A DNA stretch of 64,000 nucleotides, taken from Alteromonas sp. KC3 (GTDB lineage: Bacteria > Pseudomonadota > Gammaproteobacteria > Enterobacterales > Alteromonadaceae). The notes under the pieces are model-generated. The model made no database searches. It was not told where the DNA came from and worked only from the letters and a program-made list of their open reading frames with translations. This document shows, piece after piece, positions 4,477 through 58,631 of the stretch (position 1 is the first letter of the stretch; each line of letters starts with the position of its first letter). Location of the stretch: contig NZ_AP024235.1 of the NCBI RefSeq assembly GCF_016756315.1, forward strand, positions 4,402,001 to 4,466,000, written 5' to 3'. The position numbers and the translations under genes were made by a program.

Positions 4477-4605
4477 GCGATTTTCCTCATAATGAAGTAA
4501 GCTAAAGACTACTGATCTTTGCTCGTTAAAATTGTAACGGTAAAGAACAACAGGCCCTAGATACAGATTGTATGAAAGTATGATAACAAAGTTGTAGCGA
4601 GAGAC

Positions 4606-13526: not shown

Positions 13527-15459
13527 AAGCTTCTCGCTCCAATTCAATTTGCTCTTGCGCATCTAGCCACGCCATTTCTTCTTCTTCTAACTGCTGCTTT
13601 AATTTGGTTTGCTTATCAAGTAACTGCATCAACGTTGATTTGTTTTCTTCGTTGTAAAGCGCAGTATCAGACAGCGACGCTTCAACATCATTAAGTGCAG
13701 CAGTGTGTTTTTCCATGGCCTTTTCGTGCTTTTCTACTGCTTTTTTATATGGTGCTATCTTCTGTCTAAATTCTGCTTCGCGGCGCTTTTCTTCTTTACG
13801 GTCAATTTTACGCTCTGGCTTACTTTGATCACCTGCTGTTTTAAGCGCTTCCTCTTTCGCGTCGCTATTTGCCTTTGCTTTTTCTGCAGCCTGTTGCTTC
13901 AAGATCCAATCGCGGTAGTCGTCTAAGTCTCCACTGAATGGCTCAACCGCACCACTGTCCACTAAGTAAAAGTCTTCACACACTGAAGACAATAAGAAAC
14001 GATCGTGCGAAACCAGTACCATGGCACCTTCAAACCCCTGAAGCGCGATATTTAGTGCATGGCGCATTTCAAGATCTAAATGGTTGGTCGGTTCATCGAG
14101 AAGCAATAGATTAGGCTTTTGATAAACAATAAGGGCAAGTACCAAGCGCGCTTTTTCGCCACCCGACATAGGGGCAACTGGCGCTAGTGCCTCATCGCCG
14201 TTAAAGCCAAAACCACCAAGATAGTCACGAAGTTGTTGTTCTGTTGCTTTTTCATCTATTCGCTGTAAGTGCAACAACGGCGTAGCGTTGGCATCAAGTG
14301 TTTCCAGCTGATGCTGCGCAAAATAGCCTATCTTAAGCCCCTTGGCCGTATTGAATATGCCCTGTTTGGGCGCATGTACGCCAGCAAGGAGTTTAATTAA
14401 TGTTGATTTACCTTGACCATTTCGCCCCAATAGACCGATACGACTACCCGGTACTAAATTGAGCTTCACATGCTCTAACACAATGTGATTTTCATAGCCG
14501 AGCTGGATATTTTCCATCTGCACCAAAGGATTCGGTAATGCCGTAGGGGCAGCAAAGGCAAAACTAAATGGGCTCGCCATGTGCGCTGGCAATAACACTT
14601 CCATTTTTTCTAACTGCTTGATACGACTTTGAGCCTGCTTAGCCTTACTCGCCTTAGCCTTAAATCGGGTAATAAATGAATTGAGATGAGCGACCTTTGC
14701 CTGTTGCTTTTCATACTCTAAGTTTTGCAAGCGAATGCGTTCAGCGCGTTGAGTTTCGTAAGCAGAATAGTTGCCGGTGTACGTGATCAGTTTTTGATGT
14801 TCAACGCTAACGATTTGAGCAACGGTGTTATCAATGAATGCTTTATCGTGAGAAATTAATAGCAATGTACCGTTATAGCGCTGTAACCATTTCTCAAGCC
14901 AAATTACCGCATCTAAATCTAAGTGGTTTGTTGGCTCATCCAGCAATAATAGGTCTGACGGACACAAAAGTGCTTGCGCCAAATTTAAGCGCATACGCCA
15001 TCCACCTGAAAAGTCGGTAACAGGTGCGCTAAGCTGTTGATTGGTAAATCCAAGTCCAGACAAAATAGTGGCAGCGCGAGACTCAACATCGTACGCGCCA
15101 GCTTGCTCTAGTTGACCATGTAGCTGGCCTATTTGCACGCCGTCTTCACGGGCTTCTGCTTCAGCCAATTGAGCTTGAAGTGCACGTAAGTGTTTATCGC
15201 CATCAATCACGTAGTCAATTGCACTACGATCAGATGCAGGTGTCTCCTGCGCGACACTCACTATGCGCCAATCGCTTGGAACACTGCAATTGCCAGCATC
15301 TACACTTAACTCATTTCTCAGAAGTGCAAAGAGCGTAGATTTACCGCATCCGTTACTCCCAATAAGCGCTACTTTATGGCCAGGGAATACCTGCATAGAC
15401 GCGTCTTCTAGCAGCATTTTGCGGCCGCGAAGCAATGAAACGTTAGAAAGCTTGATCAT
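13507..15459 (-). CDS. yheS: ABC-F type ATP-binding protein YheS
   Basis: A soluble twin-ATPase of the ABC-F family, which act on ribosomes as translation factors rather than as transporters. Two ABC cassettes are visible: Walker A GSNGCGKST (34-42) with FSGGWRMR signature and LLLLDEPTNHLD, then GRNGQGKST with MSGGEKARL and a second LLLLDEPTNHLD. The linker between them is lysine-rich and helical. The C-terminus (about 530-650) is a charged coiled coil. 650 residues is the usual YheS length. First gene of the yheS-TIGR02444-yheT-yheU run, divergent from yheV. Confidence 0.92.
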   Translation of the reverse strand: MIKLSNVSLLRGRKMLLEDASMQVFPGHKVALIGSNGCGKSTLFALLRNELSVDAGNCSVPSDWRIVSVAQETPASDRSAIDYVIDGDKHLRALQAQLAEAEAREDGVQIGQLHGQLEQAGAYDVESRAATILSGLGFTNQQLSAPVTDFSGGWRMRLNLAQALLCPSDLLLLDEPTNHLDLDAVIWLEKWLQRYNGTLLLISHDKAFIDNTVAQIVSVEHQKLITYTGNYSAYETQRAERIRLQNLEYEKQQAKVAHLNSFITRFKAKASKAKQAQSRIKQLEKMEVLLPAHMASPFSFAFAAPTALPNPLVQMENIQLGYENHIVLEHVKLNLVPGSRIGLLGRNGQGKSTLIKLLAGVHAPKQGIFNTAKGLKIGYFAQHQLETLDANATPLLHLQRIDEKATEQQLRDYLGGFGFNGDEALAPVAPMSGGEKARLVLALIVYQKPNLLLLDEPTNHLDLEMRHALNIALQGFEGAMVLVSHDRFLLSSVCEDFYLVDSGAVEPFSGDLDDYRDWILKQQAAEKAKANSDAKEEALKTAGDQSKPERKIDRKEEKRREAEFRQKIAPYKKAVEKHEKAMEKHTAALNDVEASLSDTALYNEENKSTLMQLLDKQTKLKQQLEEEEMAWLDAQEQIELEREAYDSANA

Positions 15460-15600
15460 GAATTACCTGCGATGAACAACTGAGGGCGCGTATAATACCA
15501 GTTAGTACAAGCATTACACAGCTTTCGTCTGATGACGTTTATTCACTCGCATAATAACAAAAACTTGGGGGAATAGCTGATCAGTAACGCCTGTTTAACG

Positions 15601-15606
15601 TATAAT
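15601..15606 (+). promoter_or_regulatory. Candidate -10 box for yheV
   Basis: A perfect TATAAT 28 bases upstream of the yheV ATG. A matching -35 hexamer is weak (TGATCA at 17-18 bases spacing), so this is a tentative promoter. Confidence 0.4.
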
Positions 15607-15634
15607 ACGTGCGAATTTCCACAAAGGTGTATGT

Positions 15635-15841
15635 ATGTCAAACCGCGTAAGACGTCGCTTTGTTGCAGGAGCAACCTGCCCTAAATGCCAGGAGCAAGAT
15701 ACTATTTCGCTCTATTTTGAGAATAACGTGGAAAAGTTAGAGTGTGTTGCGTGTGGTTATCACGAAGCCCAAACTGACGAAAAAGTCAGTGCAGTAACAC
15801 GTGCAAACGAAGACGTTATCGGTATTTTTAAACCACACTAG
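15635..15841 (+). CDS. yheV: YheV family putative zinc ribbon protein
   Basis: A 68-residue protein with a four-cysteine zinc ribbon: CPKC near residues 18-21 and CVAC near 38-41. The N-terminus RVRRRFVAGATCPKC and the tail DVIGIFKPH match the YheV/TIGR02443 family of unknown function. It is divergent from yheS, as in related genomes. AAGGTGT is upstream of the ATG. Confidence 0.88.
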   Translation: MSNRVRRRFVAGATCPKCQEQDTISLYFENNVEKLECVACGYHEAQTDEKVSAVTRANEDVIGIFKPH

Positions 15842-15904
15842 TACGTAATCTTTTCAAAATGCTGCGTAGAAGTCACATACTGCAGGCATGTGAAAAGTGC
15901 GATA

Positions 15905-15938
15905 AAGAAGTGTGAACATGTTATCGTTCACACTTCTT
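15905..15938. terminator. Long perfect hairpin between yheV and the bacteriocin-like pair
   Basis: AAGAAGTGTGAAC pairs perfectly with GTTCACACTTCTT (13 bp, 8-base loop) between convergent genes. It likely ends transcription of both, although only the minus-strand side has a short T-rich tail. Confidence 0.65.
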
Positions 15939-15943
15939 AAACA

Positions 15944-16138
15944 TTAGGTCTCGCTTTTTGAGCGCTTCAATAGCAGCCACCTCGTGGCCACAAACACCAG
16001 TCCCGTAACACCTCCTGAAACGAAATAGGTAGCTAGTTTGACATTGTCAGACATACGTTCAATAACATCACCAAGTATGTAAAGCTGTAATAAGCCTGCG
16101 ACAACACTTACCAAAAATGCCCAAAAAACGATAGCCAT
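15944..16138 (-). CDS. Small two-helix membrane protein, candidate immunity protein
   Basis: A 64-residue protein with two hydrophobic helices (about residues 2-22 and 38-57), separated by a short polar stretch (DVIERMSDN), and a basic tail (LLLKRSKSET). I do not recognise a family. Its ATG is one base after the stop of the double-glycine peptide gene upstream, so the two must be co-transcribed and are probably translationally coupled. Small basic multi-helix membrane proteins encoded directly after bacteriocin genes are commonly their immunity proteins; that role here is inference from position and topology only. No clear ribosome site of its own is visible. Confidence 0.65.
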   Translation of the reverse strand: MAIVFWAFLVSVVAGLLQLYILGDVIERMSDNVKLATYFVSGGVTGLVFVATRWLLLKRSKSET

Positions 16139-16139
16139 G

Positions 16140-16343
16140 TTAGTCAGTCCACATAACGTCAAACATGTATGCTACAGCAGCACCCACGCCGCCGCCCAGC
16201 ATGCCCATTGGGCCAGAGAAACTGCCCGCGACTGCACCGCCTAATGTGTTGGCGAAAAGCGCCCCCATTTCGAAGTCGCCCCAGCAGTATTCAGCACAAC
16301 CGCCGCTTACCATCGTAATTTCGTTCATTTGTAGTTGTTGCAT
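16140..16343 (-). CDS. Bacteriocin/microcin-like peptide precursor with double-glycine leader
   Basis: A 67-residue precursor. Residues 1-15 (MQQLQMNEITMVSGG) form a classic double-glycine leader with Leu, Glu-Ile and Val-Ser-Gly-Gly at the usual spacing, which is recognised and cut by C39-peptidase ABC exporters. Cleavage would release a 52-residue peptide with cysteines at positions 1 and 5, eleven glycines, and a glycine-zipper hydrophobic stretch (GGAVAGSFSGPMGMLGGGVG), as in class IIb bacteriocins and class II microcins. AAGGAAAG lies 7 bases before this ATG; the longer open frame to 16454 has no such support. No exporter gene is in the window, so export would depend on one elsewhere. 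Confidence 0.75.
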   Translation of the reverse strand: MQQLQMNEITMVSGGCAEYCWGDFEMGALFANTLGGAVAGSFSGPMGMLGGGVGAAVAYMFDVMWTD

Positions 16344-16586
16344 TGTTCTTTCCTTAGATACAAGTCGTAGCCTGATTGCTACCTGTAAAGCATGGCATAA
16401 CACAGGCAAAAATGAACCTGATCTTACGCCTAGAATTTTGCGCAATTCACTCATTGCTTAGCGCGTGTGGTGAGCAAACTCGCTTTAGGTACAGTTCTTG
16501 AAGGCTTTAGGACAACACATTGGGATTTAAAACGATGAACCAATTTAAATCCCAGTTCCTTATACGTAACGAGAAGGCGAACAGTG

Positions 16587-17687
16587 ATGAGTAGGACACG
16601 CGTTGTTACCATGTTACTTGCCGTGCTAATCACGCTTGGAGCTGTGCGCGTCAGTTTACCTTATGCGGTAGCGTGGTATATCAACAATACATTGAGCCAG
16701 CCAGGCAATTACGATGGCCGAGTGGGTGATGTTGACCTTATGTTATGGCGAGGTGCGTACAGCCTTGAACACGTATTGCTATACAAGGCGAATGGCGAAG
16801 TAGACCGCCCGTTATTTAAAGCCGACTATGTCGAATTTACGCTTTCTTGGACACAACTATTAGACGGTGCAGCAGTAGGTCGCGTGGTGGTTAATTCGCC
16901 TGAGATAAACTTTATTGACAGTAATGCCAGCGAAAAACGTCAGTCTGGTAAGAACGAAAATTGGCTCTCTATTGCCGATCAGCTATTTCCATTACGCATT
17001 GATAAACTAGCGATAAACAATGGCAAAGTTGCTTTTTATAACCCTGATACCACCCCCGCTATTGATATTTCACTGCATGATATTCAACTTGAGCTTAATA
17101 ACCTTGTAAACAGCGATAGATTGTCAGATACACGAGTGGCCACCGGTAAAGCAACTGGACAGACTGCAGAGCAAGGCACATTAACAGTAGACGCCAAACT
17201 TAATCCGGCTACCCATGCCCCCACTTTCGATATTGATATACACGCAGATAATGTGGGCTTGGTCAATTTTAAGAATCTATTAGACACTTACGCACCCTTT
17301 GACTTGGAAGCAGGCACAATGACACTTGCCGCTGAAATCGCGTCAAACGAAGGCAAAGTAAAAGGTTATGTGAAGCCCATCTTGCACAACGTAGAAGTGT
17401 TTAGCTGGAAAGGTGATATCCAGCAAGATGGCGATGGTTTTTTTGAAGGTAGTATTGAAGCCATTTCAGCATTAGTGACTGAGCTTTTCGAAAACCAAAG
17501 TAAAGATCAGATTGCAACGCGCATCCCCATTGAAGGTGATATTTCTGACCCAGAAGCGCAAACATGGGATGCCTTCACTGCTATTTTAAAAAACGCTTTT
17601 GTACAGGCCTTCAATGGTGATGTAGAAAAAACCATTGAGTTGGAAAGACTTGATGTTGATAAGTCACAACAAGAAAGCACAGACTAG
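16587..17687 (+). CDS. DUF748/AsmA-like envelope protein
   Basis: A 366-residue protein with one N-terminal membrane segment (about 6-27) and a large exported part. The sequence has the repetitive beta-strand style of AsmA/DUF748 proteins (VGDVDLMLWRGAYSLEHVLLY, FPLRIDKLAINNGKVAFYNP, IDISLHDIQLELNNL), a family now linked to lipid or envelope transport bridges. It ends with an acidic tail. The ATG at 16587 is preceded directly by a GTG in frame; either could be used. It is a shorter member of the family, standing alone between the bacteriocin-like pair and the slyX group. Function inferred only from the family. Confidence 0.7.
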   Translation: MSRTRVVTMLLAVLITLGAVRVSLPYAVAWYINNTLSQPGNYDGRVGDVDLMLWRGAYSLEHVLLYKANGEVDRPLFKADYVEFTLSWTQLLDGAAVGRVVVNSPEINFIDSNASEKRQSGKNENWLSIADQLFPLRIDKLAINNGKVAFYNPDTTPAIDISLHDIQLELNNLVNSDRLSDTRVATGKATGQTAEQGTLTVDAKLNPATHAPTFDIDIHADNVGLVNFKNLLDTYAPFDLEAGTMTLAAEIASNEGKVKGYVKPILHNVEVFSWKGDIQQDGDGFFEGSIEAISALVTELFENQSKDQIATRIPIEGDISDPEAQTWDAFTAILKNAFVQAFNGDVEKTIELERLDVDKSQQESTD

Positions 17688-57005: not shown

Positions 57006-57116
57006 GACTGAAGAACTCGCCTGTTGTACAGTAAAATTAGTGAGTCATTTTCTCTATAGTGCTTGTTTTGCATTGTATCAAGCGAGCAGCGCTACCTAGA
57101 GAGGACGAACTTAGTT

Positions 57117-58631
57117 ATGGGCATGGCGGTGGTAAAAACGTTTGCAGGGCAGGGAGTATCTGCGCCAGAAGTACGTGTAGAAATTCACCTTGCTAATGGC
57201 TTGCCGGCCTTTCAGTTGGTAGGTATGGCTGAAACCAGCGTGAAAGAAGCGAGAGAGCGGGTACGCAGCGCCCTCATTAATAGCGGCTTCGACTTCCCTG
57301 CTAAGCGTATTACTGTAAACCTTGCGCCTGCAGATATCCCCAAATTCGGTGGACGCTTCGACCTACCCATTGCTATGGGCATTTTAGCCGCATCAGGTTA
57401 TATCTCTGACACAGCATTACTCAACCTAGCGTTTGTTGGCGAGCTTGGGCTTAACGGCGAGATAAAGCCTGTAAATGGGCTAATTCCTGTTGTAATGGCC
57501 GCGGCGAACGAAGATATACCCCTTATTTACCCGGGCGATAACGACATTGAAGCGGCATTAGTATCGCACGCCACGCGTTATCCTGCCTTTGACCTACTGT
57601 CAGTTTACGAGCACTTAGCGGGAAATAAAACGTTAGCAAAAGGGCAACCCTTTAGTCTGAACCATAAGCCCCAACCGTCAACGGGGTGGGACGACATTAT
57701 TGGGCAAGCCCAAGCCAAACGAGCTCTTATGATCGCCGCCACAGGGTCGCATAATTTACTAATGGTGGGGCCGCCCGGTACAGGAAAAAGCCTTTTAGCC
57801 AGCAGAATGCTATCCCTTCTGCCCGACATGACAGAAGAAGAGGCCCTTGAAGTTGCGGCTATTCATTCGGTGAAAGGCGAACGGCTCAACGCCGAGCAAT
57901 TCTTACAACGGCATTTGCGATCTCCCCATCATACAAGCTCGGCGGTGGCCCTTACCGGAGGAGGTTCACATCCTGTACCGGGTGAGATATCACTGGCACA
58001 CAATGGTATTTTGTTTTTGGATGAGTTTCCTGAATTTGGTCGTAAGGCGTTAGATGTGCTGCGCGAACCATTAGAAACAGGCGATGTACACTTATCTCGC
58101 GCATCAGGCAGTGCCACTTACCCTGCAAATTTTCAGCTTGTGGCAGCCATGAATCCAAGCCCAACAGGCGATATTGACGACAACAGACTTACTCCGCAGC
58201 AGCAATTAAATTACTTAAACCGCTTATCAGGGCCATTGCTTGATAGAATCGATATTCAAGTAGAAGTGCCTCGGTTGCCTGATTACGACTTACCTGCACC
58301 CAGCAATAAACCTGATGACACTTTGTTTCAAACAAAACAATTCGTTGCCGCCGCTCGTCAAAAACAGCTTATGCGCCAAGGCAAGCCCAATGGGGCGCTA
58401 AACGCAGGTGAACTTGCTGACATTTGCAAGCTAACGTCTGCCGACTTACAGTTTTTGCAGGCCGCGGCTAAACAGTTAAATTTATCGATGCGCGTGTTTC
58501 ATCGCACATTGAAGGTGGCCCGCACCATCGCCGATTTACAAGACGAAAGTGCAGTAAGTCGTGCACACATTGCTGAAGCCCTAGGCTATAGAGCGCTAGA
58601 CAACTTAATAAAGCAACTAAGTTCCAATTAG
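57117..58631 (+). CDS. yifB: YifB family Mg chelatase-like AAA ATPase
   Basis: A 504-residue protein of the YifB/ComM family, which in competent bacteria acts as a branch-migration helicase during natural transformation. Order: N-terminal Lon-like domain (VEIHLANGLPAFQLVGMAETSVKEARERVRSAL, NLAPADIPKFGGRFDLPIA), Walker A GPPGTGKS, Walker B LFLDEFPEF, a sensor region AAMNPSP and a C-terminal helical Mg-chelatase domain. The zinc cysteines seen in many YifB proteins after AAMNPSP are missing here (it reads TGDIDDNRLTP). The frame is open from 57063, but ATG 57117 fits the family N-terminus. Ends overlap ilvY's end. Confidence 0.92.
   Translation: MGMAVVKTFAGQGVSAPEVRVEIHLANGLPAFQLVGMAETSVKEARERVRSALINSGFDFPAKRITVNLAPADIPKFGGRFDLPIAMGILAASGYISDTALLNLAFVGELGLNGEIKPVNGLIPVVMAAANEDIPLIYPGDNDIEAALVSHATRYPAFDLLSVYEHLAGNKTLAKGQPFSLNHKPQPSTGWDDIIGQAQAKRALMIAATGSHNLLMVGPPGTGKSLLASRMLSLLPDMTEEEALEVAAIHSVKGERLNAEQFLQRHLRSPHHTSSAVALTGGGSHPVPGEISLAHNGILFLDEFPEFGRKALDVLREPLETGDVHLSRASGSATYPANFQLVAAMNPSPTGDIDDNRLTPQQQLNYLNRLSGPLLDRIDIQVEVPRLPDYDLPAPSNKPDDTLFQTKQFVAAARQKQLMRQGKPNGALNAGELADICKLTSADLQFLQAAAKQLNLSMRVFHRTLKVARTIADLQDESAVSRAHIAEALGYRALDNLIKQLSSN

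Follow-up and report, generated by a model that had tools for sequence, protein, structure and literature searches.

A microcin-like precursor gene with a coupled membrane partner in Alteromonas sp. KC3, and a promoter sequence common to its relatives, comM and radC

Next to yheV in Alteromonas sp. KC3 lies a short gene for a double-glycine peptide, followed directly by a gene for a small membrane protein. Do the two form a bacteriocin and its immunity gene, and if so, how would the peptide leave the cell and under which control would it be made? A preliminary description drawn from the DNA letters had answered that this was a new, minimal class II-type microcin and immunity pair, exported in trans. 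We followed up that proposal by comparing the pair and its surroundings with related genomes. Throughout, the window is the whole stretch of 64,000 nt that was analysed, and its features are collected in Table 1.

Table 1. Features of the window discussed in the text, with strand and basis of assignment.
Feature	Position	Strand	Basis or remark
67-aa double-glycine precursor gene	16140..16343, stop included	-	ORF reading and homologue alignment
Leader MQQLQMNEITMVSGG, 15 codons	16299..16343	-	Sequence and alignment
Predicted mature peptide, 52 aa	16143..16298	-	C-x3-C-W-G-D start, glycine-rich hydrophobic core, net charge -5
64-aa two-helix membrane protein, presumed immunity	15944..16138	-	ORF reading, hydropathy, family comparison
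13-bp perfect stem with 8-nt loop	15905..15938	.	Between convergent yheV and the pair; probable terminator
20-bp box AACTCGCTTTAGGTACAGTT	16477..16496	+	Highest-scoring site of the 64-kb window with a matrix from other genomes' peptide promoters
comM box	57014..57033	+	Followed by TATAGT 21 nt later
comM, Mg-chelatase-like helicase gene	57117..58631	+	Pfam domains; promoter type common with peptide genes

The precursor, its partner and their locus

Both genes of the pair are as first described. The 67-residue precursor has 11 glycines in its predicted mature part, with the two near-terminal cysteines at mature positions 1 and 5. The 64-residue partner, which starts one base past the peptide stop, has hydropathy peaks at residues 1-17 and 35-51, in agreement with two helices, and ends in a basic tail. 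The proposal had hinged on a leader conserved in homologues, and across 16 aligned peptide sequences M1, L4, V12, G14 and G15 of the leader are indeed invariant, as are C16, C20, W21, G22, D23 and several core glycines. The C-x3-C-W-G-D start after the GG is near-invariant in the family: one peptide outside this alignment (L018) carries Tyr in place of the first Cys.

A search for homologues, which the preliminary description had suggested, found the peptide in 17 of the 59 genus genomes, so the precursor family is real and reflects more than chance. In the wider sample, a peptide profile search matched 23 of 395 genomes from the family, several of them through distant double-glycine peptides only, and 5 of 394 genomes sampled across the order, each of which belongs to that same family. 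The window peptide had five protein matches, with relatives at 64-82% identity, and the matches to the peptide include the public names Alteromonas halophila and A. mediterranea. Public records name its relatives "Blp family class II bacteriocin" or "Bacteriocin". Because bacteriocin names are thus already in use for this family, the kind is not new; what stands of the original claim, on the strength of conservation in the family, is a bacteriocin-type precursor with a coupled small membrane protein. Pfam and NCBIfam scans of peptide and partner returned nothing above cut-off, the window peptide scoring 13.5 bits with PF10439 (Bacteriocin_IIc; cut-off 27.1) and 14.9 bits with PF17508 (Microcin V; cut-off 27). 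PF10439 is listed for five peptide relatives (P0004, P0005, P0006, P0011 and P0019). Plasmid and phage collections held no match to the peptide, and a scan of viral contigs gave 15 pattern matches with no peptide relative among them. One source labels the close relative P0003 as the outer membrane lipoprotein SlyB, which seems to be a misannotation. The literature search found no Alteromonas double-glycine bacteriocins and, among the papers listed, none on topic for an Alteromonas microcin or class II bacteriocin.

The partner is regular in position. A small hydrophobic ORF lies downstream of the peptide gene, on the same strand, in all 19 loci read (L002-L018, L119 and L123); counted from the start codons chosen, these ORFs span about 57-88 aa, and the first start codon is at most about 65 nt from the peptide stop or overlaps it. 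Two hydropathy peaks were present in 13 of the 14 partners examined and one peak in the remaining partner. Sequence comparison shows that the partner diverges faster than the peptide: the window partner had only two matches among 5.8 billion proteins, both 100% identical where aligned. In G069 a stop falls inside the peptide frame and the 68-aa partner-like ORF is intact. We presume the partner to be the immunity gene, since its appearance is what would be expected of one.

On the yheV side the pair is closed by the 13-bp hairpin that had been noted earlier, which folds at -19.2 kcal/mol (55 nt of the minus strand). The pair had been described as an insertion between yheV and slyX-fkpA. The first boundary is correct; slyX is not the immediate neighbour, as a divergent DUF748 gene (16584-17687) directly upstream of the peptide gene intervenes and slyX lies beyond it. 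We compared 30 yheV loci including the window, one of them (L161) only partial. A DUF748 match follows yheV in 21 of the 29 other loci fetched, and in the ten closest (L135-L137, L139 and L141-L146) it begins about 190-260 bp after yheV, as against 743 bp in the window. With the window peptide as query, two of the 30 loci matched, namely the window itself and G033, where the pair lies at the same side of yheV with no DUF748 match there. Among 16 loci around other peptides, the window's neighbours recur in G033 only. In Rfam, window positions 15000-17000 had no match, and seven relative loci had none besides a ribosomal leader. A 5' hairpin was noticed by eye at two loci, the window and G033; it was discarded as a family feature, as it was not evident in other loci.

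Exporter genes in relatives and in Alteromonas sp. KC3

Export in trans would call for a C39-peptidase ABC exporter elsewhere in the genome. A C39 family search matched in 58 of the 59 genus genomes, and in 57 of them the match is strong and the frame measures 720-787 aa, as a C39 ABC exporter would; the two exceptions are the genome of Alteromonas sp. KC3 itself and G002. The 16 other peptide-bearing genus genomes contain 17 C39 exporters, chosen by length and ABC signature with one checked against Pfam, and all have the Cys-His-Asp triad. None of the 17 falls within the 20 kb read around the peptides, and all are unlinked to the peptide gene. The claim of export in trans therefore agrees with the relatives, of which 16 of 16 encode an unlinked C39 exporter, and for the genome in which it was made it runs into the refutation that the preliminary description had itself set: the KC3 assembly is one contig, 100% complete, and the family search found no C39-peptidase ABC exporter in it. 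Its sole C39 protein is a lipoprotein-like frame of 336 aa without ABC domains, and C39 frames of this size, about 310-350 aa, occur in many genus genomes. When the exporter of a relative was searched against KC3, all matches were to ordinary ABC transporters or ATPases, and the membrane-fusion protein that the preliminary description had also named gave no match there in a search with one relative's protein as the single query and no positive control.

The exporter cassette of relatives consists of a fusion protein, the exporter and a small LuxR-type regulator, often with a second small double-glycine peptide and an ATP-grasp gene, and in 15 of 17 loci it lies between genes that we take to be mvaA and hslU. 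Eight genomes were examined at mvaA: the exporter is divergent from mvaA in six, on the other side in G039 and absent in G002. In KC3 the place of the exporter between mvaA and hslU is taken by three unrelated ORFs (L109:9713-12143). Because no exporter was found in the genome and its usual site is occupied by other genes, we regard the window pair as an orphan, and we infer that the exporter was lost from KC3 rather than never present.

Several further observations concern the transporter loci. By eye, one of the three L109 ORFs has an aspartyl-protease-like DTGSS stretch and one a HEAFH stretch. Two further transporters examined have degenerate C39 sites; in L076 and L090, a second ABC transporter type with a degenerate C39 domain lies beside repeat-rich ORFs, with a TolC/OmpA-like protein also adjacent in L076 (by eye), and both loci resemble an adhesin-type type I system. 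The second small double-glycine peptide was seen in exporter operons at ten loci (L075, L080-L084 and L086-L089); the six that were read end in GEGGG or GEDGG, then LPD, and close to the peptide there is a RimK-like ATP-grasp gene, whose Pfam assignment was checked in L075. Peptide and ATP-grasp gene together presumably resemble a graspetide-type RiPP cluster. Upstream of the fusion-protein gene in L075, L080, L084 and L086-L088 we noted by eye a conserved inverted-repeat leader, followed by a T run in some loci and with no Rfam match in the loci searched.

Orphan microcins have precedent. In the cinful survey, the exporter was present in the assembly for 81.9% of E. coli microcin hits (PMC9746304, partial text); the remaining share may partly reflect assembly gaps.

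A box upstream of peptide genes, comM and radC

A 20-bp, partly dyadic box lies upstream of 13 non-redundant peptide genes. Its best Gibbs motif score was 256, compared with 168-186 in 12 base-shuffled controls, which leave kinship between the upstream regions in place. The box is upstream of 18 of 19 peptide genes (the G033 peptide is without it) and starts 85-102 nt before the start codon in 17 of 19 loci, and at -153 in the window. There, a matrix built from 11 boxes of other genomes places it in the gap that separates the peptide gene from DUF748; it scores better toward DUF748, and neither direction offers a good -10. Beside DUF748 in the other yheV loci there is nothing comparable, apart from one weak site of 12.3 in L136. 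Over 701 kb surrounding other peptide and exporter loci, with two unrelated stretches added, the matrix gave 15 sites scoring at least 15, all of them peptide boxes, and in 400 kb of other relative sequence two such sites, both 15.9 (L195:5149 and L199:5044). Two other box-like sites were recorded, one scoring 17.7 at window positions 4549-4568 before a NUDIX (nudE-like) gene, with no -10 at 21 nt, which may be chance or a repressor site, and one scoring 15.9 at L227:10653, 62 bp from a recQ-like gene and in the opposite orientation.

The same matrix matches upstream of the window gene that we take to be comM, and upstream of radC in the KC3 genome. We found comM in 8 of 10 relative genomes sampled; seven have a partial site scoring 8.5-11.2 in the orientation of the gene, and the eighth (L203) has, by eye, the right half GTACAGT only. 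The set of eight comM boxes used below comprises seven of these eight and the window's own, L211 being left out because its box is identical to that of L206. We read radC in KC3 and in five of six relatives sampled (it was not found in the G025 stretches), with five sites scoring at least 9.9 and one 5.9. When a -10 hexamer was scored at 39 offsets, a distance of exactly 21 nt after the box came out best in each of three groups (11 peptide, 8 comM and 6 radC boxes), the hexamer at that distance being poor for 4 of the 11 peptide boxes and 1 of the 6 radC boxes.

When box and -10 at 21 nt were scored together, by a model for which peptide boxes of other genomes were the sole training set, comM ranked first and radC second of 1,715,724 positions in 860 kb, or 19% of the KC3 genome, and a rerun agreed; in a separate listing of such sites the window peptide box was fifth. 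Not one of 150 column-shuffled matrices placed comM and radC both in the top 100 (the best reached 360, and five came within 1000). By box alone the two genes ranked 4 and 10, and at offsets of 18, 23 and 24 both were likewise in the top ten, suggesting that most of the signal is in the box and that spacing contributes less. A pattern search of the whole genome gave two sites with one mismatch, at this pair and at comM, and 11 with three mismatches versus 5 for the reversed control; it is not independent evidence, because the pattern was written from these two sites.

Does the box mark a competence regulon? Neither comF (KC3 and two relatives) nor comEC of KC3 has a good box, and dprA has none in KC3 or in three of six relatives in which it was found, with best scores up to 8.9 in 900 nt. 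This argues against a whole competence regulon. Nothing that we read shows natural competence in Alteromonas, and a literature search gave, among the papers listed, nothing on topic that joins a microcin or bacteriocin to a competence regulon or TfoX. Both radC and comM belong to the CRP-S competence set of Haemophilus, under a different motif (PMC5809987, partial text), and comM of V. cholerae is QstR-dependent, with no common motif reported in the text seen (PMC6237807). A link of the peptide to competence control is thus something we propose from promoter resemblance. Of seven distant double-glycine peptides, only that in L129 (G117) has a good box (12.3 bits) and -10, and L133 (G010) is weak at 5.0 bits; a -10-like hexamer follows 21 nt later in both, and other peptide families may therefore have this type of promoter too. 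We also considered whether the exporter operon is regulated through this box by its small LuxR-type protein, and dropped the idea, as the best score upstream of the fusion-protein gene was 7.3 across 17 of 17 loci.

Proposed account, alternatives and known systems

We hold, with moderate confidence, that the pair encodes a microcin-like precursor and its immunity protein, with unlinked export in relatives, a promoter of the comM/radC type and a remnant in KC3. In relatives, an activator would bind the 20-bp box, and peptide and partner would be transcribed from the promoter type common to the family, that is, box, 21 nt and -10. The C39-peptidase ABC exporter, whose gene lies at another chromosomal site, would cut the precursor behind VSGG and carry the peptide out. 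Sensitive kin may then be attacked by insertion of the mature, glycine-rich peptide into their inner membrane, an attack from which the small two-helix protein would shield the producer. Because this promoter is common to the peptide genes, comM and radC, timing with DNA uptake or recombination is suggested, much as in the competence bacteriocins of Streptococcus (PMC13059744), and production of the peptide probably coincides with expression of DNA-processing genes, perhaps as part of a competence-like state. In KC3 the pair is probably silent or an immunity-only remnant, which we consider its likeliest state because no exporter was found and the box is displaced and lacks a good -10.

Other explanations deserve consideration. 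The peptide could be a secreted pheromone, with the partner as a small membrane receptor or modulator, since double-glycine leaders serve the export of pheromones too; the small LuxR-type regulator gene in the exporter operon of relatives and the resemblance of the peptide promoters to those of comM and radC would fit. However, pheromones do not usually have a hydrophobic, glycine-rich core as long as this one (about 50-65 aa), the partner evolves fast and belongs to no family above cut-off, and the neighbours read in the window include no histidine kinase beside the pair, and we consider a pheromone unlikely. A different alternative concerns only the control: the box might be an imperfect SOS operator bound by LexA, as for many colicins. 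Its half sites CTGT/ACAG agree with the consensus SOS box, and in KC3 the matrix also detects an SOS-like site (L220:7310) before a gene that we take to be imuA-like. LexA control is nevertheless improbable, because most boxes have no left CTG (it is missing in 8 of 8 comM, 5 of 6 radC and 8 of 11 peptide boxes) and because the -10 tends to lie at one fixed distance downstream, as for an activator.

Two further alternatives bear on the missing exporter. That both ORFs of the pair are still intact in KC3 might mean that an unrelated transporter exports the peptide and another protease removes the leader, and the genome does contain six type I-like ABC transporter frames. These are only 577-648 aa long, with no C39 domain found in them, and the one C39 protein available is the lipoprotein-like peptidase lacking ABC domains, which makes this route improbable as well. 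If the peptide simply stayed inside the cell, as it would with no exporter, it could act on the producer itself as a lysis or autolysis peptide without killing others. Precedent comes from the Nap peptides of Neisseria, which are bacteriocin-like, have double-glycine leaders and showed no inhibition of the bacteria tested (PMC11798529, partial text). The Naps are, however, cationic and come with their own C39 peptidase gene according to the same text, whereas the window peptide has a net charge of -5 and its relatives have a full exporter; we regard self-lysis as very unlikely.

We return to the account of a microcin-like peptide with its immunity protein. It can be extended, as a tentative generalization that we think possible and doubtful in its full form, to a group of dispersed Gram-negative double-glycine bacteriocins under the activator of comM and radC, with which marine Alteromonas-type bacteria would kill kin when ready to take up and recombine DNA, and of which KC3 would keep the immunity after loss of the exporter. 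Such bacteriocins would be the counterpart of the competence bacteriocins of Streptococcus. If true, this would tie a peptide weapon to DNA-processing genes, in a way open to direct testing, in a marine Gram-negative group that is common, with the 20-bp box as a handle for fishing out the regulator. A genome that keeps a bacteriocin-immunity pair and no exporter would also be a natural case for asking whether orphans persist as resistance.

Among known systems, class II microcins such as MccV (PMC9746304, partial text) are alike in the double-glycine precursor, the adjacent small membrane immunity candidate and, in relatives of the pair, the C39 ABC exporter with its fusion protein. The pair's family differs in its CxxxCWGD mature start, Alteromonadaceae host and comM/radC-type promoter, and in an exporter that is unlinked in 16 relatives and not found in KC3. 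Bacteriocin_IIc or Blp-type peptides (PF10439) have a comparable leader and glycine-rich core, and some relatives carry the PF10439 or Blp name, although the window peptide itself is below the cut-off. In Moraxella catarrhalis, a double-glycine bacteriocin gene, mcbC, is followed directly by the 74-aa immunity gene mcbI; the likeness is one of gene layout, and the mcb genes differ in sharing an operon with their exporter (PMC2761928, partial text). Streptococcus has bacteriocins tied to the competence state, in a Gram-positive host and with expression shown by experiment (PMC13059744, partial text), whereas here the link is the promoter sequence only. The QstR regulon of Vibrio cholerae similarly places killing genes, those of a T6SS, and comM under one regulator (PMC6237807, partial text). 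In that system the regulator has a name, QstR, and the text seen reports no common motif; in the family described here, a putative activator would act through a 20-bp box.
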